Positions 1,289 through 11,327 of a stretch of 64,000 bases of DNA are shown here, in pieces. Under the pieces are notes generated by a model, which saw only the letters and a list, made by a program, of their open reading frames with translations, had not been told where the DNA came from and searched no databases. Where the stretch lies: positions 1,674,001 through 1,738,000 of the forward strand of contig NZ_CP109132.1 of NCBI RefSeq assembly GCF_035918015.1. The letters are read 5' to 3'. Each line of letters opens with the position of its first letter. Within the stretch, counting starts at the first letter, position 1. The DNA is from Streptomyces sp. NBC_01754 (GTDB lineage: Bacteria > Actinomycetota > Actinomycetes > Streptomycetales > Streptomycetaceae). The translations under genes and the position numbers were made by a program.

Positions 1289-2023
1289 TCAGCCGCCCGT
1301 CGCGACGCCGAACAGGGTGCCGAGGCCGTAGGTGATCGCGGCGGCCGCCCCGCCGAGGACGAGCTGGCGCAGCCCGCTGAACCACCAGGTACGCGCCGTC
1401 ACCCGGGCCACGACCGCCCCGCAGCCGAAGAGACCCACGAGGGCGAGCAGCACGGCGGGCCACAGCACGGTGGCACCGAGCAGGTACGGCAGTACGGGAA
1501 GCAGGGCGCCCAGCGCGAAGGCCCCGAAGGAGGACACCGCCGCGACCAGCGGCGAGGGCAGGTCGCCGGGGTCTATGCCGAGTTCTTCGCGGGCGTGGAT
1601 CTCCAGCGCCTGCTCCGGGTCCTTCGACAGCTGGCTCGCCACTTCGCGGGCGAGGGCGGGTTCGACGCCCCGGGACACGTACAGCGCGGCGAGCTCCTCC
1701 ATCTCGTCCTGGGGGTGCTTGCGCAGCTCACGGCGCTCGACGGCGAGCTCGGCCTCGACGAGTTCGCGCTGCGAGGCGACCGAGGTGTACTCGCCGGCCG
1801 CCATGGAGAACGCGCCGGCGGCCAGTCCGGCGAGGCCGGTGATGACGATGGTCTGCTGGGAGACCGCTCCTCCGGCGACGCCCGTCATGAGGGCCAGGTT
1901 GGAGACGAGTCCGTCCATGGCTCCGAACACCGCGGGCCGCAGCCAGCCGCCGTTCACGTCGCGGTGGGTGTGGTTGTCGCGGTGTGCCTCGTGCAGGACT
2001 GCGCCGGTCTCGATGACGGTCAC
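1289..2023 (-). CDS. VIT1/CCC1-family membrane transporter
   Basis: The 244-residue protein resembles the VIT1/CCC1 family of iron/manganese transporters. The N-terminal part contains FGAMDGLVSNLALMTG and GLAAGAFSMAAGEY, glycine-rich membrane segments typical of the family. A charged stretch of roughly 70 residues follows, where cytoplasmic metal-binding helices lie in plant VIT1. Two or three more hydrophobic segments end the protein. The GTG start at 2023 was chosen because GGAGGAGGGGAG lies directly upstream; the frame remains open to 2224 but the extension has no family-like sequence. It is divergent from the ADP-ribosylglycohydrolase operon, with 263 bases between. Substrate specificity cannot be read from the sequence. 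Confidence 0.85.
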   Translation of the reverse strand: MTVIETGAVLHEAHRDNHTHRDVNGGWLRPAVFGAMDGLVSNLALMTGVAGGAVSQQTIVITGLAGLAAGAFSMAAGEYTSVASQRELVEAELAVERRELRKHPQDEMEELAALYVSRGVEPALAREVASQLSKDPEQALEIHAREELGIDPGDLPSPLVAAVSSFGAFALGALLPVLPYLLGATVLWPAVLLALVGLFGCGAVVARVTARTWWFSGLRQLVLGGAAAAITYGLGTLFGVATGG

Positions 2024-2286
2024 GTCTCTCCCCTCCTCCGGGAGCGGGCTCCGTGCGCCCCACTCCCCGTTCCACGCTGTCGAAAGTACGCACGAAAAGC
2101 GCCTCCCGCCAGCAAGGAAGGCCGTACTTACCGCCCTGCGGGGTGCTCTCACCGGCGTCCCTCGTGTGGCCCTTTTACCGGTGCCGCCGGCCAGGACGGG
2201 GGCACCGCGTGGGACACATCGCACAGGGGGCCCGGCAAGGCCGCGGGCCCGAAGGACGGCGCGGCGCGAGCGGGAGGTCGACGCGG

Positions 2287-3498
2287 ATGGAGCGGAAGAC
2301 GGACAGCCGGGCGGTGACCCGCCGGGGCACCTGGACCGGCGGGCCGGCGGGGTACGGCCCGGGCACGCCCGCCGGGGTCGCCGGACGGGCGCGCGGGGCG
2401 CTGCTCGGGCTCGCGGTGGGGGACGCGCTCGGCGCCCCGGCGGAGAACATGCGGCCGTCCGAGATCCGCCGCCGCTGGGGCCGGATCACGGGCTTCGTCA
2501 GCGACGACCCGGCGGGGACGGACGACACCGAGTACGCCGTCTTCTCGGGGCTGCTGCTGGCCCGGCACGGTTCGGCGCTGACGGTCTCCCATGTGGAGCG
2601 GGCCTGGCACCGCTGGATCGCGGACCTGGACGAGGGCCCGTTCCGGGGCGCCGGGTTCAGCGAGCGCGGCACGCTGGAGAACCTGCGGCGCGGGCTGGCC
2701 GCACCGATCTCGGCCCAGCACCGTCATGCGTGGAGCGACGGGCTGGCGATGCGGGCCGCGCCGTTCGGTGTCTTCGCGGCGGGGCGGCCCGCCGAGGCGG
2801 CCCGGCTGGTGGCGGTGGACGGCCGGGTCAGCCATGAGGGGGAGGGCATCTACGGCGGCCAGGCGGTCGCGGCGGGGGTGGCCGCCGCGATGGTGGGCGC
2901 GGGACCGTCGTCGGTGGTGGCCGCCGCGCTGTCGGTCGTGCCGATGGACTCCTGGACCGCCCGTTCGCTGCGCCGCGCGGTCACCGCCGCACAGCGTTCG
3001 TACCCGGACCGGCTGACGGGGGAACGCGCCGTGCGCTCGGCGGTGGTGATCGGCGGCTACCCGTGGACGGACCTGGCGCCGGAGGCGGTGGGCCTGGCCT
3101 TCGGCGCCTTCACGGCGGCGCGCGGCGACTTCCGTACGGCGGTGCTGACGGCGGTGAACATGGGCCGGGACGCCGACACGACGGCCGCGGTGGCGGGTGC
3201 GCTGGCGGGCGCGCTGCACGGGGAGTCGGCGATCCCGCGGGCCTGGGCGTCGGCGATCGGGCCGGTACGCGGCAGCTGCCTGCCGTCGATGCGGGGCTAC
3301 CACGTGCTGGACATCGCGGACCTGCTGACGCCGGACGACCAGGAGGACCTACGGAGGGCGCCGGCCGGCACGTCCGGCGGGGAGCCGGGGCTTGCGGGGT
3401 GCGGACCGGCGCGGGAGGCCCCCGGTGTCTCGTGGACCGCGGCACCGGACGGCGGCGTACGCAGCTCACCGGTCACCGCTCCGGGGACCGCCCGATGA
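2287..3498 (+). CDS. ADP-ribosylglycohydrolase family protein 1
   Basis: First gene of a seven-gene operon. The 403-residue protein has the DraG/ARH fold signatures: GLAVGDALG at about 41-49, GTDDT at 77-81, and GRDADT at 294-299. Asp296 and Asp298, together with the TDDT aspartates, would coordinate the binuclear Mg2+ site. All expected ligands are present, so it is predicted to be a hydrolase of an N- or O-glycosidic bond to ribose. The last 45 or so residues are Gly/Pro/Ala-rich and probably disordered. The ATG at 2287 has GGGAGG 10 bases upstream. The stop overlaps the next start (ATGA). The substrate could be ADP-ribosyl-protein, ADP-ribose derivatives or another ribosyl compound; sequence does not decide. 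Confidence 0.88.
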   Translation: MERKTDSRAVTRRGTWTGGPAGYGPGTPAGVAGRARGALLGLAVGDALGAPAENMRPSEIRRRWGRITGFVSDDPAGTDDTEYAVFSGLLLARHGSALTVSHVERAWHRWIADLDEGPFRGAGFSERGTLENLRRGLAAPISAQHRHAWSDGLAMRAAPFGVFAAGRPAEAARLVAVDGRVSHEGEGIYGGQAVAAGVAAAMVGAGPSSVVAAALSVVPMDSWTARSLRRAVTAAQRSYPDRLTGERAVRSAVVIGGYPWTDLAPEAVGLAFGAFTAARGDFRTAVLTAVNMGRDADTTAAVAGALAGALHGESAIPRAWASAIGPVRGSCLPSMRGYHVLDIADLLTPDDQEDLRRAPAGTSGGEPGLAGCGPAREAPGVSWTAAPDGGVRSSPVTAPGTAR

Positions 3499-4787
3499 GC
3501 GTCCGGCGCGGCACCGCCGCACCGCCCCGTGCCGCCGTCCACACCCGTCCGGCGGACGCCCCGGCACGCACCTCCCCCGGCCGCCGGGACCGGATCGAGG
3601 GGATGCTGCTCGGGCTGGCCGCCGGGGACGCCGCCGGGTGGCCGGCCGCGCGGCACCGGGCGGCGCGGATGCCCGAGTGGACCCGGCGGCTCACCCGCGA
3701 GCTGGACACCTTCGCCGAGCAGAACGCGACCACCACCCTCCCCGTGCCGATCGCGCTCAACCAGCCGCCCGAGCCGCTCCGGCTCGGGCCCTCGGACGAC
3801 GCCGAGTGGGCGGCGTTCACCGCCGGGACGGTGCTCGCCGCCGCGGCCGGCCACGCGTCCGGCCTCCCGCCCGGACGCCGGATGCGGGAAGCGATCGACC
3901 GGTCCTGGAACGCGCTGGCCGCGAAGGTCGCCGCCGCCAGTGCCCAGGCCCCCGAGGTCGAGTCCGCCGTGCTGCCGCTGCGCGCCCGGATCTCCGTACG
4001 GGCCGGGCTCGGCAACCTCGCCGCGGGACTGCGTCCGCCGGCCTCCGGACACGACAACCCGCACTACTTCGACGACGCCGCGTGCGTCCGGGCCGTCGTC
4101 CTCGCCCTCGTGCACCCGGGAGACCCGGCGGCCGCCGCCGCGATCGCCGAGTTCGACGCCCGCTACACCCAGGACGGTGACGGGGTGCACGGCGCCCGTG
4201 CGGTCGCCGCCGCGATCGCCGTGGCGCTCGCCGGTGCGGACGTCGACACCGCGGTGGACGCCGCGCTCGAACAGCTGCCGGAGGGGACCGAGATCGCCCG
4301 CAACGCGGTCCACGCGGTGCGGCTGGCCCGGGAGTTCGCGGGAGAGCGGGCGGGGGCCTTCGCCCTGGTCCCCGTGCTGGAGCACAGGATCGTCGACCAC
4401 GTCTACAGCTACGGGATCGCCGCCGCCGAGACGGTGCCGGTCGCCCTCGCCCTGACGACCGCCGCCCGGGGCGAGATCGCCCAGGCCGTGCCCGCGGCGG
4501 CCTGCCTCTCCCGGGTCGCCGACTCCGCGCCCGCCCTCGCCGGTGCGCTGACCGGCGCGCTGGGCGGGGCCGGCACCGTGCCGACGGGCTGGCGCGAGGC
4601 CTGCCGCACCCTGGCGGGCTGCGCGCTGCCGCGCCTCGCCGGAACCGATCTCATCGAACTCGCCGGGCTGCTGGCAGCCACGGAACCGGCCACCCCGGGT
4701 GGACAATTCCGGCATGACACCCAAAACCTCCACAGCGACCGGGCCGGACACCACCCCGGCTCCCCGCCCGGCACCCACCCTGGATGA
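3495..4787 (+). CDS. ADP-ribosylglycohydrolase family protein 2, degenerate metal site
   Basis: A 430-residue paralogue of the preceding gene, starting at the ATGA overlap. The N-terminal glycine motif is kept (GLAAGDAAG, about 40-48), but TDDT is replaced by SDDA (100-103). The C-terminal GRDADT motif reads SRVADS (339-344), so the first of the two metal-binding aspartates is Val341. By the family mechanism this should weaken or abolish binuclear metal binding, so the protein may be a pseudoenzyme, a binding partner, or use a different chemistry. The surrounding helical pattern (ALAGALTGALGG) is intact, so it is not simply decayed. The last 25 or so residues overlap the next gene and look non-conserved. 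Confidence 0.82.
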   Translation: MSVRRGTAAPPRAAVHTRPADAPARTSPGRRDRIEGMLLGLAAGDAAGWPAARHRAARMPEWTRRLTRELDTFAEQNATTTLPVPIALNQPPEPLRLGPSDDAEWAAFTAGTVLAAAAGHASGLPPGRRMREAIDRSWNALAAKVAAASAQAPEVESAVLPLRARISVRAGLGNLAAGLRPPASGHDNPHYFDDAACVRAVVLALVHPGDPAAAAAIAEFDARYTQDGDGVHGARAVAAAIAVALAGADVDTAVDAALEQLPEGTEIARNAVHAVRLAREFAGERAGAFALVPVLEHRIVDHVYSYGIAAAETVPVALALTTAARGEIAQAVPAAACLSRVADSAPALAGALTGALGGAGTVPTGWREACRTLAGCALPRLAGTDLIELAGLLAATEPATPGGQFRHDTQNLHSDRAGHHPGSPPGTHPG

Positions 4788-5916
4788 ACGCGTCGCCGGC
4801 GCGCTGGTCGGGGCGGCGGTCGGCGACGCGCTCGGCGGCCCCGTCGAGGGCTGGTCCCCCGAGCAGATCGCCGAGCGCCACGGGGGCCGGGTGACCGGTG
4901 TCGTCGGCCCCTGGTACGGCGACGACTGGCGCACCGCCCGCCCGATCGCCCCGTACCACAAGGGCGACGGGCACGTGACCGACGACACCCTGATGACCCA
5001 TGCGCTGGTGCGGGTGTACGAGACCGTGCGCGACCACCTCGACGCGTACGCGGTCGCCGACCACCTCGTCCCCGACCTGATGTCCCGGCCCCGCTGGATC
5101 CCGGAGCTGGAGGCCGAGGCGCTGCCGCTCCAGCGGATCTTCCTGGCCGAGAAGTGGATCGTCACCCGACTGCACTACGGTCACGCCGACCCGCGCGAGG
5201 CGGGCTCCGGGAACATCGTCAACTGCGGGGCGGCGATGTACATGGCGCCCGTCGGCCTGGTGAACGCCGCCCATCCGAAGGCCGCCTACGCGGAGGCGCT
5301 GGACGTCGCCGGGGCGCACCAGTCCTCGTACGGGCGGGAGGCGGCCGGGGTACTCGCCGCCGGGGTGGCGGCCGCGTGCGCGCCCGGCGCGACGCCCGCC
5401 TCCGTCGTCGACACCTGCCTGGCACTCGCCAAGGACGGCACCCGCGCGGCGATCGAGGCCGTGTGCGAAGTCGCCGTGCGGCACACGGACTTCGAGTCCG
5501 CGCTCGCGCCGCTGCGCGCCGCCGTCGCCCCCTTCGACACCGTGGGCCCGCACTACCGCGAGCCCTCGCTGGGCGCCCGGCGGCCCTCCCGGCTGCACTC
5601 GGTCGAAGAGCTGCCCGTCGCGCTCGGCATGCTGCTCGTCGGTGGGGGCGACTACCGGCACACGGTGCTCGGCTCGGTCAACTACGGCCGGGACTGCGAC
5701 TCGATCGCCACCATGAGCGGGGCACTCGCGGGCGCCCTCCACGGCGAACGGGCGGTCCCCGCCGCCTGGGCGACGGCGGTCGCCGACGCCAGCCGCCTCG
5801 ACCTGCGCGCACCGGCACGGGTCCTGGCGGAGGTGGCCCGCGAGATCTTCGTACGGGACACGGCCCGCCGCCGGTCCCACGAGTCGGCGTTCGCCGCACT
5901 GGCAGGACCGCGATGA
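4714..5916 (+). CDS. ADP-ribosylglycohydrolase family protein 3
   Basis: Third paralogue, 400 residues from the ATG at 4714. A GTG at 4699 would add five residues. It overlaps the end of the preceding gene by about 74 bases, the only long overlap in the operon. Family motifs are complete: GAAVGDALGG (33-42), VTDDT (88-92) and GRDCDS (325-330) with Asp327 and Asp329. An insertion of about 30 residues lies between the first glycine motif and TDDT, and the region around 150-170 has a conserved-looking SGNIVNCGAAM segment, so it differs clearly from protein 1. It is predicted to be an active Mg2+-dependent ribosyl hydrolase of unknown substrate. Its stop overlaps the next ATG (ATGA). Confidence 0.87.
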   Translation: MTPKTSTATGPDTTPAPRPAPTLDERVAGALVGAAVGDALGGPVEGWSPEQIAERHGGRVTGVVGPWYGDDWRTARPIAPYHKGDGHVTDDTLMTHALVRVYETVRDHLDAYAVADHLVPDLMSRPRWIPELEAEALPLQRIFLAEKWIVTRLHYGHADPREAGSGNIVNCGAAMYMAPVGLVNAAHPKAAYAEALDVAGAHQSSYGREAAGVLAAGVAAACAPGATPASVVDTCLALAKDGTRAAIEAVCEVAVRHTDFESALAPLRAAVAPFDTVGPHYREPSLGARRPSRLHSVEELPVALGMLLVGGGDYRHTVLGSVNYGRDCDSIATMSGALAGALHGERAVPAAWATAVADASRLDLRAPARVLAEVAREIFVRDTARRRSHESAFAALAGPR

Positions 5917-7280
5917 CGGTACGGCTGACCTGGGTACAGCCCGAGGACCTGGTGGGCCATGAGCTGCGGCAGGCGGCGCAGGACGGCCGGGACACCGGTG
6001 ACGTCGAGCAGCGCTGGCACGCGGCCGGCGGCGCCCCGGCCCCGGAGCGTGACGGGGCCTCCCAGGCGCCCGCCTCACCCGGGCTGCGGGCGCTGGCCGG
6101 GCGGCTGCTGGACGAACTCGCCTCGGCCGAGAGCCCCTTGGCGGCTGACGAGCCGACGGACCTGGCGGCGATCCGGGCCGCGTGCCCCCGGTGGCCGGCG
6201 CCCCGGACCCGGCCGGTGTCCCTCGGACTCGAACGGCTGCACGCCGCCTGGCTGGGCCGGGCCGCCGGCTGCCTGCTCGGCAAACCGGTCGAGAAGCTGC
6301 CGCTCGCGGGCATCCGGGCCCTGGCGCGGGCCACCGGCGACTGGCCGCTCACCACCTGGTTCACCGCACGCGGGCTGCCGGCCGAGGTGGCCGCCGCCCA
6401 CCCGTGGAACCGCCGCTCGGCCGCCACCTCGCTGGCCGAGAACATCGACGGGATGCCGGAGGACGACGACCTCGACTTCCCCCTGCTGGCGCTGCTGCTG
6501 CTCCGGCGCCACGGCCACGGCTTCGGCACGGACGACGTCGCCCGGCTCTGGCTCGACACGCTGCCGGCGGGACGGGTCTTCACCGCCGAGCGCGTCGCGT
6601 ACCGCAATCTGCTCGACGGTGTCGAACCGCCGCTCACCGCCCGGTGGCGCAACCCGTTCCGGGAGTGGATCGGCGCCCAGATCCGGGCCGACGTGCACGG
6701 CTGGACGCATCCGGCGGATCCGGCCGCCGCCGCCGAGCAGGCGTACCGGGACGCGGCGCTCACCCACACCGCCAACGGGGTGTACGGGGCGATGTTCGCC
6801 GCCGCCGCGCTCGCCGAGGCGGCCGGGGGCGAGACGGACGTCCACGGCTGCCTGGCGGCCGGGCTGCGCGTGGTGCCGCCCCGTTCCCGGTACGCGCACG
6901 CGGTGCGCCTGGGCATCGGGACGGCCCGCGCCGAGCGGGACTTCGACCGCGTCGTGGACCGGCTGCACGCCGTCTACGCGGACACCCACCACTGGGTGCA
7001 CGTCCTGCCCAACGCCGCGCTGCTGGCCGCCGCCCTCACCCACGCCGACGGCGACTTCGCCCGCTCGGTCTGCGCCACGGTGTCCGGCGGCTGGGACACC
7101 GACTCCAACGGCGCGACGGCCGGCTCGCTCGCGGGCCTGCTGGCCGGGCGGCCCGCCGCGCTGCCCGAGCGGTTCACGGCCCCGCTGAAGAACCGCCTCG
7201 CCACGTCCGTGCCCGGTTTCGACTCCGTCGGCTTCGACACCCTCGCCGAACTGACCTACCAGGAGGTACGCCGCCCATGA
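5913..7280 (+). CDS. ADP-ribosylglycohydrolase family protein 4, divergent subfamily with N-terminal extension
   Basis: A 455-residue protein. The first 100 or so residues form an extra charged helical region before the hydrolase fold. The usual GD of the first motif is GC (GRAAGCLLGKPVE, 115-127), and TDDT is replaced by EDDDLDF (183-189). The C-terminal GGWDTDS (392-398) keeps Asp395 and Asp397. The GCxLGKPVE / NIDGMPEDDD pattern looks like a coherent subfamily rather than decay, so the protein is probably active on a substrate different from those of its neighbours. The ATG at 5913 overlaps the previous stop, and its own stop overlaps the kinase start. Confidence 0.85.
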   Translation: MTVRLTWVQPEDLVGHELRQAAQDGRDTGDVEQRWHAAGGAPAPERDGASQAPASPGLRALAGRLLDELASAESPLAADEPTDLAAIRAACPRWPAPRTRPVSLGLERLHAAWLGRAAGCLLGKPVEKLPLAGIRALARATGDWPLTTWFTARGLPAEVAAAHPWNRRSAATSLAENIDGMPEDDDLDFPLLALLLLRRHGHGFGTDDVARLWLDTLPAGRVFTAERVAYRNLLDGVEPPLTARWRNPFREWIGAQIRADVHGWTHPADPAAAAEQAYRDAALTHTANGVYGAMFAAAALAEAAGGETDVHGCLAAGLRVVPPRSRYAHAVRLGIGTARAERDFDRVVDRLHAVYADTHHWVHVLPNAALLAAALTHADGDFARSVCATVSGGWDTDSNGATAGSLAGLLAGRPAALPERFTAPLKNRLATSVPGFDSVGFDTLAELTYQEVRRP

Positions 7281-8161
7281 CAGCGATCGCGGTGCTCGGC
7301 AGCACCACCATGGACCTGGTCGCCCGCGTCGCCCGGGCACCCGGGCGCGGGGAGACCGTCACCGGCCGCGAGTTCCGGACCGTGCCCGGCGGCAGGGGAG
7401 CCGACCAGGCCCTCGCGGCGGCACGCGCCGGCGGGGAGGTGGTCATGATCGGTGCGGTCGGCACCGACGAGTACGGCTCGCGGCTGCGTACGAACCTGGA
7501 GCACGCGGGCGTCGACACGGATCTGCTGCACACCGTGGCGGGGCCCAGCGGCACGGCGCACATCGTCGTCGACGACGAGGGCTCCCACGCGACCGTGGTG
7601 ATCCCCGGCGCCAACGGCACCGTCACCACGATCGGCCCCGGCGAACAGGCGGCCATCGCGACGGCCGGGCTGCTCCTGCTCCAACTGGAGCTCCCGCTGA
7701 GCGCGGTGACCGAGGCGGCGCGGAGCGCGCGGTCGCGGGGCGTCCGCACCCTCCTCACCCCCTCCCCCGTGCGGCCCCTGCCGGACGGACTCCTGGACGC
7801 GGTGGACCTGCTGATCCCCAACGAGCACGAGGCGGCCGCGCTCTCCGGGCAGGCCGATCCGCACACGGCCGCCGAGATCCTGCTGCGGCGGGTCCCGGAG
7901 GTGGTGATCACACTCGGCGACCGGGGCTGCCTGTACGCGGCCCGGGGCGGCGAGGCCGTCCGGTTCCCCGCTCCCGAGGTCGTCGCCGTCGACACCACCG
8001 GCGCCGGGGACACCTTCGTCGGCACCCTGGCCGTGGCACTCGGCGAGGGCCGGGCCGTCCCGGAGGCGCTGGCCTGGGCGGCGTCGGCGGCGGCGCTCTG
8101 CGTACAGAAACCCGGGGCGTCGGCCTCGATGCCGTACCGCGGCGAGATCGATGCCGTATGA
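7277..8161 (+). CDS. PfkB-family sugar kinase, ribokinase-like
   Basis: The 294-residue protein has both PfkB signatures: GGRGADQ at 38-44 (ribokinases usually have GGKGANQ) and DTTGAGDTF at 239-247, with Asp245 as the expected catalytic base. The N-terminal sugar-binding segment reads GSTTMD where E. coli ribokinase has GSINAD, so one sugar-contacting Asn is missing and the substrate may not be free ribose. It would phosphorylate a pentose or nucleoside-like product using ATP in the cytoplasm, plausibly a product of the upstream hydrolases. AGGAGGT at 7261-7267 gives a strong ribosome binding site and the start overlaps the previous stop (ATGA). Confidence 0.88.
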   Translation: MTAIAVLGSTTMDLVARVARAPGRGETVTGREFRTVPGGRGADQALAAARAGGEVVMIGAVGTDEYGSRLRTNLEHAGVDTDLLHTVAGPSGTAHIVVDDEGSHATVVIPGANGTVTTIGPGEQAAIATAGLLLLQLELPLSAVTEAARSARSRGVRTLLTPSPVRPLPDGLLDAVDLLIPNEHEAAALSGQADPHTAAEILLRRVPEVVITLGDRGCLYAARGGEAVRFPAPEVVAVDTTGAGDTFVGTLAVALGEGRAVPEALAWAASAAALCVQKPGASASMPYRGEIDAV

Positions 8162-9354
8162 GTACGCCTCCCACGCCTCTGGAAGGCCTGCGGGTCCTGG
8201 ACCTCGCCACGCTGTTCGCCGGTCCCCTCGCGGCCACCGTGCTCGGCGACTTCGGTGCCGAGGTCGTCAAGATCGAACACCCGCGCCGTCCGGACCCCTC
8301 GCGGGGTCACGGGCCCGCGAAGGACGGGATCGGCCTGTGGTGGAAGCTGCTCAGCCGCAACAAGCGGACGATGACACTCGATCTGTCCGCCCCCGGTGGC
8401 CGGGAGGTCCTGCTCCGGCTCGCCGCCGGCGCCGACGTGGTCGTCGAGAACTTCCGGCCGGGGACGCTGGAGCGCTGGGGGCTGGGCTGGGAGGAGCTGA
8501 GCGCCGTCAACCCCCGGCTGGTGCTGGCCCGGGTCACGGCTTTCGGCCAGTTCGGCCCGTACGCGCACCTGCCGGGCTTCGGCACGCTGGCAGAGGCGAT
8601 GAGCGGCTTCGCCGCCGTGACCGGAGAGCCGGACGGCCCGCCCACCCTGCCGCCGTTCGGGCTCGCCGACTCCGTCGCGGCGCTCGCGACGGCGTACGCG
8701 GTGATGACGGCTTTGGCCGGGCGGGAGCGGACCGGGCGGGGGCAGGTGGTCGACCTGGCGATCATCGAGCCCATCCTGACGGTGCTGGGCCCCCAGCCGC
8801 TCTGGTACGACCAGCTCGGATACGTCCAGCCGCGTACCGGCAACCGGTCCCGCAACAACGCCCCGCGCAACACCTACCGGACCTCCGACGGCCACTGGGT
8901 GGCCGTCTCCACCTCGGCCCAGTCGGTCGCGGAGCGGGTCATGCGCCTGGTGGGCCGGCCGGAGCTGATCGACGAGCCGTGGTTCGCGGCGGGCACCACC
9001 CGGGCCGAGCACGCCGACGAACTGGACGAGGCCGTCGGCCACTGGATCGCCCGGCGCACCCGGGAGGAGGCGGTGTCGGCGTTCGAGAAGGCGGAGGCGG
9101 CGATCGCCCCCGTCAACGACGTACGGGACGTGCTGGAGGACCCCCAGTACCGGGCCCTGGACACGGTCACCGAGGTCGACGACCCGGAACTGGGGCCGCT
9201 GCGGATGCAGAACGTCCTCTTCCGGCTCTCGGAGACCCCTGGAGCGATCCGCTGGGCGGGCAGGCCGCACGGCGCGGACACGGAGGAGATCCTGTCGGAG
9301 CTCGGCCTGCCGCCGTCCCGCGTCGCCGCCCTGCGCGCCGAGGGGGCGCTGTGA
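8158..9354 (+). CDS. Family III (CaiB/BaiF) CoA-transferase
   Basis: A 398-residue protein of the formyl-CoA transferase/CaiB family. It begins with PLEGLRVLDLATLFAGP, which includes the usual nucleotide-binding start, and has FGAEVVKIEHP (about 32-42). VENFRPGTLERWGLG (about 95-109) is the family's central motif. Asp171 in FGLADS matches the aspartate that forms the acyl-enzyme anhydride. It would move CoA between two carboxylic acids; donor and acceptor cannot be read from sequence. It overlaps the kinase by ATGA and the lyase by GTGA, so its product is probably used directly by the lyase. Confidence 0.9.
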   Translation: MSTPPTPLEGLRVLDLATLFAGPLAATVLGDFGAEVVKIEHPRRPDPSRGHGPAKDGIGLWWKLLSRNKRTMTLDLSAPGGREVLLRLAAGADVVVENFRPGTLERWGLGWEELSAVNPRLVLARVTAFGQFGPYAHLPGFGTLAEAMSGFAAVTGEPDGPPTLPPFGLADSVAALATAYAVMTALAGRERTGRGQVVDLAIIEPILTVLGPQPLWYDQLGYVQPRTGNRSRNNAPRNTYRTSDGHWVAVSTSAQSVAERVMRLVGRPELIDEPWFAAGTTRAEHADELDEAVGHWIARRTREEAVSAFEKAEAAIAPVNDVRDVLEDPQYRALDTVTEVDDPELGPLRMQNVLFRLSETPGAIRWAGRPHGADTEEILSELGLPPSRVAALRAEGAL

Positions 9355-10202
9355 GCGGCCCGCCACGGGCCCGCAGGGCGGGCGGGGACACAGCGGTGGC
9401 GCTGACCTGGTTGTACGTCCCCGGGGACAGGCCCGAGGTGGTGGGCAAGGCGCTGGACGCGGGTGCGGACGTGGTGATCGTGGACCTGGAGGACGCGGTC
9501 GCCCCGGACCGCCGGGAATACGCCAGGGCGGCCACGGCCGAACTCCTCACCGGTCCGCCCGTCACCGGCGCGGCGGCGGTCCCGGTGCACGTCCGGGTGC
9601 ACGGGGAAGCCGATGTGCGGGCCCTGGCGGGGCTGCCCGGCCTGTCCGGGATACGGCTCCCCAAGATCACCCATGCGGCGTCGGTGCACCATGTCGCCGC
9701 GCTGGCCCCCGGGGTGCCGCTGTATCCGCTGCTGGAGTCGGCGCTGGCGATCGAGCACGCGTACGCGATCGCCGGGGCCCACCCCGATGTCCGCGGCATC
9801 GCCCTGGGCGAGGCGGACCTCCGGGCCGACCTGGGGGTACGCGACGACGCCGGGCTGGACTGGTCGCGTGGCCGGGCGGTGGTCGCCGCCCGGGCGGCCG
9901 GACTGGCCCCGCCGGTGATGTCGGTGTTCCCGGACGTCCGGGACCTGCCGGGGCTCCGGGCCTCGTGCGCGCACGGCCGGCGGCTGGGCCTCCTCGGCCG
10001 GGCCGCGATCCACCCCCGGCAGCTGCCCGTCATCGAACGGGCGTTCCGGCCCACGGGGGAGGAGGTCGAGGCGGCGGAGCGGATCATCGAGGCCGCGCGG
10101 ACCGGGCAGGGCGCGCTGGCCCTGCCGGACGGACGTTTCGTGGACGCGGCGGTGGTGGCCACGGCACGCCGGACCCTGTCACTCGCCGACCGCGAGAGCT
10201 GA
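9351..10202 (+). CDS. CoA-ester lyase, HpcH/HpaI aldolase family (CitE-like)
   Basis: A 283-residue protein of the citrate lyase beta/malyl-CoA lyase type. LYVPGDRPE near the start, VDLEDAV, PLLESALAI, LGEADLRADLG and the GRAAIHPRQL motif near residues 217-226 are all family landmarks. The glutamates and aspartates of LES and GEADL are the expected Mg2+ ligands. It would cleave a 3-hydroxyacyl-CoA into acetyl- or propionyl-CoA and a 2-oxo acid. The GTG at 9351 overlaps the preceding stop (GTGA) and gives the best translational coupling, although a later GTG at 9396 also precedes the first motif. It is the last gene of the operon. Confidence 0.87.
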   Translation: MSGPPRARRAGGDTAVALTWLYVPGDRPEVVGKALDAGADVVIVDLEDAVAPDRREYARAATAELLTGPPVTGAAAVPVHVRVHGEADVRALAGLPGLSGIRLPKITHAASVHHVAALAPGVPLYPLLESALAIEHAYAIAGAHPDVRGIALGEADLRADLGVRDDAGLDWSRGRAVVAARAAGLAPPVMSVFPDVRDLPGLRASCAHGRRLGLLGRAAIHPRQLPVIERAFRPTGEEVEAAERIIEAARTGQGALALPDGRFVDAAVVATARRTLSLADRES

Positions 10203-10281
10203 GGGGGCCCGTTCGGGGATCGGGCGAGGAGCCGGGTCCGCCGGTCCCTGCCGGGCCGGTCTCCTCTCCCGGGGAAACGGG

Positions 10282-10323
10282 GGCGGGCCGGACCCGTGCG
10301 CGTCAGCACCGGTCCGGCCCGCC
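10282..10323. terminator. Bidirectional terminator hairpin
   Basis: GGCGGGCCGGACC at 10282-10294 pairs perfectly with 10311-10323 across a 16-base loop. It sits between the converging CoA-ester lyase and lgt genes and could end both transcripts. No U-tract follows, as is usual in this high-GC sequence. Confidence 0.75.
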
Positions 10324-10337
10324 TCAAGGAGGCCGGG

Positions 10338-11327
10338 TCAGCTCTTCTCGGCCGTCTGCGGGGCGGCCTCGGCGTCGTCCGCCGTATCCGGCCCGCGACC
10401 GTCCTCGACGTCGCCGCCGTCCTTCTCGCCCTTGCCCTTCTCGCCCTTGCCGTCCTCGTCGCTCCCGCCGTTCTCCCCGTCCTCGCCGTCCTCGCCGTCC
10501 TTGGACAGCTCCACCGCGGCCGGCTCGACGATCTCCTCGCGACCGGGGCGCACCCTCGCCGAGATCACCATGTACACGACCGCGAGCACGAAGACGACGA
10601 TCGCCGTCCACACGTTGAGCCGGAGGCCCAGCACGTGGTGCGCCTCGTCCACCCGCATGTACTCGATCCAGCCGCGGCCCGCGCAGTAGGCCGCGACGTA
10701 CAGCGCGAACGCCCGGCCGTGTCCGAGCTTGAAGCGGCGGTCCGCCCAGATGACCAGGAGGCCGACGCCGACGCACCACAGCGATTCGTACAGGAACGTC
10801 GGGTGGTAGGTGCCCGCCATCCGGTTCGTGCCTTCGCTGATCTTCAGCGCCCAGGGGAGATCGGTCTCCCTGCCGTACAGCTCCTGGTTGAACCAGTTGC
10901 CCCAGCGTCCGAACGCCTGGGCGAAGGCGATGCCGGGCGCTAGCGCGTCGGCCCAGGCCGGCAGCGGGATCCCCCGGCGGCGGCAGCCGATCCAGGCACC
11001 GACCGCGCCGAGCGCGATCGCACCCCAGATACCGAGGCCGCCCTGCCAGATCTTGAAGGCGTCGACCCAGTTCTCACCGTCGCTGAAGTACAGCTGGTAG
11101 TCGGTGATGACGTGGTACAGCCTGCCGCCGACCAGGCCGAAGGGGACCGCCCAGACGGCGATGTCGGCGACGGTGCCGGCTTTGCCGCCCCGGGCGACCC
11201 AGCGCTTGTTGCCGTACCAGACGGCGACGAAGACACCGATGATGATGCAGAACGCGTAGCCGCGGAGCGGGATCGGGCCGAGCTCGATGACACCGGTCGA
11301 CGGGCTGGGAATGTAGGCAAAGTTCAT
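10338..11327 (-). CDS. lgt: Prolipoprotein diacylglyceryl transferase
   Basis: Membrane enzyme that transfers diacylglycerol from phosphatidylglycerol to the lipobox cysteine of prolipoproteins, the first step of lipoprotein maturation (lspA at 45446 performs the second). Of 329 residues, about 265 form a multi-span membrane core. The Lgt signature GRWGNWFNQE is at 140-149; YHPTFLYES and GRGWIEYMR follow, as in the family. The C-terminal 65 residues are an acidic Glu/Asp/Gly/Lys-rich tail with GEDGED-type repeats, longer than in enterobacterial Lgt and presumably cytoplasmic. It is last in the minus-strand trp-dsbA-lgt block and converges with the plus-strand operon. Confidence 0.96.
   Translation of the reverse strand: MNFAYIPSPSTGVIELGPIPLRGYAFCIIIGVFVAVWYGNKRWVARGGKAGTVADIAVWAVPFGLVGGRLYHVITDYQLYFSDGENWVDAFKIWQGGLGIWGAIALGAVGAWIGCRRRGIPLPAWADALAPGIAFAQAFGRWGNWFNQELYGRETDLPWALKISEGTNRMAGTYHPTFLYESLWCVGVGLLVIWADRRFKLGHGRAFALYVAAYCAGRGWIEYMRVDEAHHVLGLRLNVWTAIVVFVLAVVYMVISARVRPGREEIVEPAAVELSKDGEDGEDGENGGSDEDGKGEKGKGEKDGGDVEDGRGPDTADDAEAAPQTAEKS

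Follow-up and report, generated by a model that had tools for sequence, protein, structure and literature searches.

Which task is served by seven overlapping genes that place four ADP-ribosylglycohydrolase (ARH) family proteins beside a PfkB-type kinase, a coenzyme A (CoA) transferase and a CoA-ester lyase? The question was raised by a stretch of 64,000 nucleotides from Streptomyces sp. NBC_01754 (contig NZ_CP109132.1, positions 1,674,001 to 1,738,000 of the forward strand; hereafter the window), in which these genes, A to G, occupy positions 2287-10202. Comparison with related genomes identified the operon as a pared-down Streptomyces form of a catabolic operon present in many soil and freshwater actinobacteria. 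On balance, this operon probably handles an imported compound of a furanose (most likely ribose) and an organic acid, often an ester.

Gene organization

2287-3498, + strand: A, ARH-family protein 1 of the ARH/DraG fold family (PF03747, E 6e-62; motifs TDDTE and GRDADT)
3495-4787, + strand: B, ARH-family protein 2 (PF03747, E 3e-33; motifs SDDAE and SRVADSAP; one metal ligand lost)
4714-5916, + strand: C, ARH-family protein 3 with complete di-metal motifs (PF03747, E 2e-50)
5913-7280, + strand: D, ARH-family protein 4 with a long N-terminal extension (PF03747, E 1e-46, residues 111-419; motifs EDDD and DTDS)
7277-8161, + strand: E, ribokinase-type PfkB kinase (PfkB, E 2e-62; three unusual sugar-pocket residues in the window copy)
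8158-9354, + strand: F, family III (CaiB/BaiF) CoA-transferase (CoA_transf_3, E 9e-127)
9351-10202, + strand: G, CitE/RipC-like CoA-ester C-C lyase (HpcH_HpaI, E 7e-27)

The seven genes lie back to back on the same strand without gaps. Five junctions are 4-base overlaps, with ATGA at A/B, C/D, D/E and E/F and GTGA at F/G, and the sixth (B/C) is an overlap of 74 bases, or of 89 if C begins at its alternative start, GTG 4699; the junctions described in the first-pass annotation were thus confirmed from the sequence. All seven genes are under purifying selection (dN/dS 0.12-0.39 in two comparisons with other Streptomyces genomes).

Conservation and linkage

D was searched for in 246 genomes of the class. 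Matches were found in 52 of them, and 60 stretches around chosen matches were examined. Operon-type D, defined by a tblastn score of at least 380 bits, was present in 44 of the 60 stretches, the window's own included. F and G stood beside it at 43 of these 44 loci, E at 34 and the full set ABCDEFG at 33, and the presence of the CoA pair (F and G) at 43 loci argues that its co-occurrence with D is not due to chance. The 20 Streptomyces loci, from 24 genomes, comprised 13 with ABCDEFG, six with ABCD-FG and one with BCD-FG at a contig edge. Among the 24 loci from other genera there were 20 with ABCDEFG and one each with ABCD-FG, CDEFG (at a contig edge), CD-FG and ABCD alone.

A gene for LacI, two permease genes and a solute-binding protein gene were found beside 24 of 25 operon loci outside Streptomyces, the remaining locus ending at a contig edge; at the thresholds used they were beside none of the 20 Streptomyces loci, the window's included. 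LacI, SBP_bac_1 and two BPD_transp_1 permeases constitute the setting of a CUT1-type sugar importer. The best homologue of the operon's solute-binding protein in the window's genome was only 28% identical, and the Streptomyces loci also have no glycosidase-fold protein (K). Since importer, LacI and K are all absent from the Streptomyces locus, the compound would there enter by another route or be made in the cell.

A further set of 80 named loci, those with the strongest matches to K among 240, gave the solute-binding protein at 76, the permeases at 75 and 75, LacI at 74, C at 76, D at 77, E at 64, and F and G at 73 each. The core of these loci is the importer, C, D, the kinase, K and the CoA pair, and does not include A or B.

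The ARH-family hydrolases

Seven PF03747 matches were found in the window's genome, four of them in the operon, where A, B, C and D score 210, 116, 173 and 161 bits against a cut-off of 26.2. In the ARH/DraG family two metal ions are bound by the Asp residues of a DD and a DxD motif. A, C and D retain DD and DxD(T/S): in alignments with relatives, the motif Asp residues of A were invariant in 45 of 45, the DD and DxDS of C were kept in 45 of 45, and the metal Asp residues of D were present in 54 of 55, the remaining row being gapped. In B each Asp of the first motif was kept in 45 of 46 relatives, and the first Asp of DxDT was gone in all 46 (Val in 22, Leu in 17, Thr in three, Gln in three and Asn in one), a loss seen again when B (39 rows of fewer than 600 residues) was aligned together with A and C. 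The active-site variants noticed among the four paralogues at first inspection are therefore real and are common to their relatives. B is under selective constraint like that of the other operon genes (dN/dS 0.20-0.21 in two genome pairs) and is likely to be a non-catalytic or altered partner of A.

B adjoins A wherever both were found, including three loci (L045, L052 and L066) at which A-B is accompanied by LacI and solute-binding protein genes and by neither C nor linked F-G; L045 has D and a kinase, and the F fragment with which L052 ends is part of a different cluster (L159). This distribution suggests that A-B is a module of its own, a separable add-on to the core. In a phylogeny of 91 ARH proteins, one branch each separated A, B, C and D from the rest, with sequences of different families together (support of 96-100 in the SH-like approximate likelihood-ratio test), which indicates old paralogues that were co-inherited, not a recent tandem burst.

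None of the four reaches the cut-off for DraG or Tri1. A scored 78.1 bits against the DraG equivalog TIGR02662 (cut-off 337.05) and 53.6 bits against the Tri1 equivalog NF041672 (cut-off 490), and B, C and D scored lower than A or gave no match. Among solved structures, A is closest in sequence to DraG (2woe/2woc) and C to MJ1187 (1t5j), with DraG next; D had no PDB sequence match at E 0.001.

One report lists SCO2028-SCO2031 of S. coelicolor as uncharacterized DraG/ARH homologues (PMC9411070), and another names three, SCO2028-2030 (PMC5087735). SCO2038 is assigned to the trp locus in a third (PMC5036795). Because the numbering is consecutive, and because trpA- and trpB-like open reading frames (ORFs) were recognized by eye shortly downstream of the operon here, SCO2028-SCO2031 are presumably the operon's A-D, SCO2028 being A and SCO2030 being C. 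In another study, activity on U-alpha-ADPr, a single substrate, was not detected for purified SCO2028 or SCO2030 (PMC13036486).

These listings as DraG/ARH homologues, the family membership and the intact metal sites of A, C and D would suit reversal of ADP-ribosylation, in which A-D would strip proteins or nucleic acids of ADP-ribose while the genes downstream share no more than their transcript. Against this stand the inactivity on U-alpha-ADPr and the recurrent linkage to an importer, LacI, K, an esterase and CoA pairs of non-single origin; moreover, no ADP-ribosyltransferase was found among the selected neighbours scanned with Pfam. We regard this explanation as quite improbable. The first-pass annotation had guessed at a metabolite derived from NAD, ADP-ribose or a nucleoside. 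NAD or ADP-ribose as the substrate fits poorly with a glycoside-type importer, and no Nudix-like gene was recognized among the Pfam-scanned recurring neighbours, for which no dedicated Nudix search was made; NAD/ADP-ribose turnover is accordingly disfavoured.

The kinase and the sugar

The best model for E was TIGR02152, with 283.1 bits for the window copy against an equivalog cut-off of 299.65. Relatives scored 315.8 (the Streptomyces orthologue at L008, above the cut-off), 296.6, 295.7, 271.5, 255.4 and 239.2 bits, and the solved structures nearest to E are ribokinases. The residues that contact ribose in E. coli ribokinase, which we take to be N14, D16, K43, N46, E143 and D255 (letters checked in 1gqt), were all six kept in 64 of 64 relatives from the named loci, in 25 of 25 other relatives (four of them from outside operon-type loci) and in 12 of 13 Streptomyces copies. 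Judged by the type of kinase, ribose is the favoured sugar. The window copy is the sole exception among the 13 Streptomyces copies, differing at three ribose-contact positions, and its pocket may reflect an altered or waning sugar specificity.

The CoA-transferase, the lyase and the acid

F matched PF02515 with 423.6 bits and G matched PF03328 with 94.7 bits. The Asp of the GLADS motif of F, at the catalytic position of family III CoA-transferases, was present in 116 of 116, and the Arg, Glu and Asp of G at the catalytic and metal sites were likewise invariant (116 of 116). The best NCBIfam model for F, a succinate-glutarate CoA-transferase, was matched far below its cut-off, and no equivalog cut-off was passed. 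For G the best model was RipC_Ccl (NF038242), at 139.7 bits with a cut-off of 375; two relatives scored 132.4 and 149.1 bits.

Elsewhere, homologues of F and G adjoin DctM, MmgE/PrpD, Asp/Glu racemase and PEP-mutase/ICL genes, and those of F are also near RraA-like, cyclase and amidohydrolase genes, which is the company of carboxylic-acid and ring breakdown genes; the neighbours of the F-G homologues speak for the pathway proposed below. Such neighbours also bear on a nucleoside-like salvage pathway, modelled on the logic of E. coli yegTUV and psuGK, in which the ARH enzymes, as N-ribosidases, would cleave an unusual nucleoside (modified or alpha-configured) and F-G would degrade a base-derived acid. 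The ribokinase-type kinase is in keeping with this. So are the clusters in which F homologues occur, whose genes for amidohydrolase, Asp/Glu racemase, Amdase, isochorismatase and CN-hydrolase are characteristic of the degradation of rings or amides. The importer, however, is an SBP_bac_1-type system with LacI rather than a permease for nucleosides, the recurring neighbours looked at held no recognizable gene for a deaminase or a ring-opening enzyme, and an esterase and the glycosidase-fold protein recur instead. We therefore consider nucleoside-like salvage unlikely.

The history of the CoA pair was followed in trees of 49 rows for F and 44 rows for G. Operon copies from freshwater (Nanopelagicaceae-like) genomes (L042 and L075) grouped with non-operon copies of related small genomes (L170 and L171). 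A single clade of operon copies was rejected by the approximately unbiased (AU) test with p 1.75e-6 for G (16 against 16 rows) and p 1.5e-12 for F (16 against 21 rows), 16 of the 26 operon rows being used and L168 and L172 dropped. As the operon copies of F and G do not form one clade, the CoA pair has joined the hydrolases more than once or has been replaced in place. We take it that the CoA chemistry belongs with the hydrolases.

The window's genome holds a second copy of F with 71% identity about 160 kb upstream (L150, G000:C1:1504000-1523500). This second CaiB gene is part of an unexplained catabolic cluster that also includes genes for CN-hydrolase, isochorismatase, Amdase, an FAD/PEP-mutase fusion and IclR. 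At L156 and L170 a module of CaiB, a putative cyclase and MmgE/PrpD was observed, with a CitE gene nearby and an amidohydrolase gene; a similar CaiB/cyclase/MmgE-PrpD module was recognized by eye at L161 and L166, in different genomes.

Esterases and other accessory genes

Outside Streptomyces, the operons often include the glycosidase-fold protein and an esterase. An esterase homologue lay inside the operon or within 300 bases of it at at least 16 of the 80 named loci; the flanks ended at about 10 kb, so that this count is a lower bound. It was sited between K and F (L104, L108 and L145), directly after K (L136 and L138) or after G (11 loci), and at least seven other loci (L022, L025, L028, L031, L036, L037 and L041) carried a homologue of the L076 esterase divergent from LacI. 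The three copies scanned (L138, L076 and L112) belong to PF00756, and an apparent N-terminal signal peptide was seen by eye in those of L076 and L145. The recurrence of the esterase suggests that the substrate contains an ester.

Secreted-looking esterases and a recurring glycosidase-fold protein would also be expected if the sugar were another furanose of plant glycosides (apiose or arabinofuranose) carrying hydroxymethylglutarate, malate or the like as its acyl group, and if the hydrolases cut these furanosides. The hosts include Kribbella, Cellulosimicrobium, Promicromonospora and Micromonospora, which are plant-polymer degraders, and the best model of F, distant as it is, agrees with such an acid. 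The ribokinase-type pocket, on the other hand, is kept in the relatives, and no known plant-glycan furanosidase was recognized in the operon, though carbohydrate enzymes were not searched for systematically. This explanation appears quite unlikely to us.

At eight Kribbella loci some 2.5 kb of inserted DNA separates C from D; at L079 (5325-7814, minus strand) the insertion was read by eye as encoding a PhoD-type phosphatase-like protein and a second protein. At L049 (G110:C69) a D-type ARH gene lies beside genes for a ribokinase-like kinase and an oligopeptide-type ABC system, together with dihydrodipicolinate-synthase-type lyase-, epimerase- and sialidase-like proteins (by eye). Another D-type ARH gene occurs near genes of shared clusters in Streptomyces (L046, L047 and L067), those at L047 being phosphatidylserine decarboxylase, CDP-alcohol transferase, methylmalonyl-CoA mutase-like and HpcH/HpaI genes. 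In the window, a VIT-family gene (Pfam) lies upstream of A on the opposite strand, and an ORF read as lgt from its sequence is convergent with the operon downstream of G. The region 1900-10400 gave no match to a sigma-70-like promoter or to a + strand terminator, which is weak evidence in such a genome.

Proposed function

In the full form of the operon, a LacI repressor would control a CUT1 ATP-binding cassette (ABC) importer that brings in a furanoside with an acid part. C and D would hydrolyse glycosidic bonds, assisted by K and, in some lineages, by the A-B pair. The ribokinase E would then direct ribose into the pentose phosphate pathway, F would activate the released (hydroxy)dicarboxylate by CoA transfer, and G would cleave the acyl-CoA to acetyl-CoA (or propionyl-CoA) and a 2-oxoacid. 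The comparisons establish which genes occur together and are conserved, that catalytic residues are intact and that the CoA pair of the operon is not of one origin; the substrate with its ribose, ester and dicarboxylate, the bond cut and the operation of all these enzymes as a single pathway are what we infer.

Several observations weigh against this proposal. Regular occurrence of the hydrolases without the kinase and the CoA enzymes had been named in the first-pass annotation as a reason to abandon a common pathway. This was found for the kinase, with E unlinked at seven of 20 Streptomyces loci and absent from 16 of the 80 named loci (two of them at a contig start), but not for the CoA pair, which was missing from one of the 44 operon-type loci and from seven of the 80 named loci (two near a contig end). 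The operon-type exception is genome G104 (L020), with ABCD and without E, F and G, and at L072, L073, L074, L107 and L138 no linked F-G was found with sequence left at the locus; among the small genomes concerned, those of L072 and L074 have F elsewhere and that of L073 (a 0.9 Mb record) has none. The choice of named loci by their match to K biases that sample towards K-holding loci. All nine genomes tested that lack linked E (seven Streptomyces, G148 and G239) hold another ribokinase-like gene (283-303.5 bits), and so do two of the three E-keepers tested (G000 and G035, not G161), so that an argument from substitution says little. The window's own E reads T, D, R, D, E, D at the ribose-contact positions (N14T, K43R and N46D). 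F was found in 63 of the 246 genomes at E 1e-150, and its presence in some without a D match means that it is not specific to the operon's pathway. Four G rows and one F row, from low-GC freshwater genomes, have an unusual letter make-up; with six-state recoding against composition bias the four rows still fell together and a single operon clade was still rejected for G (AU p 1.2e-7), and the rejection for F was weaker (p 0.020).

The catabolic pathway put forward in the earlier annotation is thus supported by the importer and LacI context, the ribokinase-type kinase and the repeated association of the CoA pair; NAD or ADP-ribose as its substrate found no support, and the seven genes do not make up the natural unit. 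That unit is the widespread core of LacI, ABC importer, C, D, kinase, K, F and G, from which A-B is separable. Among the papers listed by the literature searches, none describes this gene set as a pathway, in line with the first-pass annotation. It is possible, and put forward tentatively, that the pathway is a new one, widespread in Actinomycetes, in which ARH-fold ribosidases act on an acylated ribofuranoside taken up by the importer, whose acid is consumed by CoA transfer and a retro-Claisen reaction. In that case four of the eight S. coelicolor DraG/ARH homologues would be catabolic, and B would be a conserved but catalytically inactive subunit within a pair of hydrolase proteins.

If SCO2028-SCO2031 are A-D, a catabolic role becomes more likely for these four of the eight homologues, which changes the choice of enzymes to test for signalling. 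The operon opens an undescribed pathway to experiment, and the importer's binding protein from Kribbella, Amycolatopsis or freshwater Nanopelagicaceae offers a direct handle on the substrate.

Comparison with known systems

A-D share with the DraG/ARH family, to which DraG itself (ADP-ribosyl-[dinitrogen reductase] glycohydrolase), ARH1 and ARH3 belong, a PF03747 match that spans the whole domain and, in A, C and D, the metal Asp motifs. They differ in that proteins of their type are found in importer-linked catabolic operons and in that A is far below the DraG and Tri1 cut-offs.

The combination of a CoA-transferase and a CitE-like lyase resembles the itaconate/citramalate and malyl-CoA routes (RipC/Ccl and Rv2498c): F is a family III CoA-transferase, and G is nearest to the RipC_Ccl and CitE models with its catalytic residues kept. 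The difference is that F and G fall far below the equivalog cut-offs. As the seven genes do not include one for an itaconyl-CoA hydratase, an already hydroxylated substrate would be expected.

The ribose-scavenging (rus) locus of B. thetaiotaomicron and E. coli yegTUV, which we take to be sugar loci of the ARH-plus-ribokinase kind, likewise combine an ARH-family hydrolase, a PfkB-type kinase and a transporter. In contrast to these, the operon is associated with LacI and a CUT1 ABC importer, encodes two to four ARH proteins and includes a glycosidase-fold/FGE protein, a CoA-transferase and a CoA-ester lyase. It is an undescribed variant of importer-linked sugar catabolism that joins ARH-family hydrolases to CoA chemistry.

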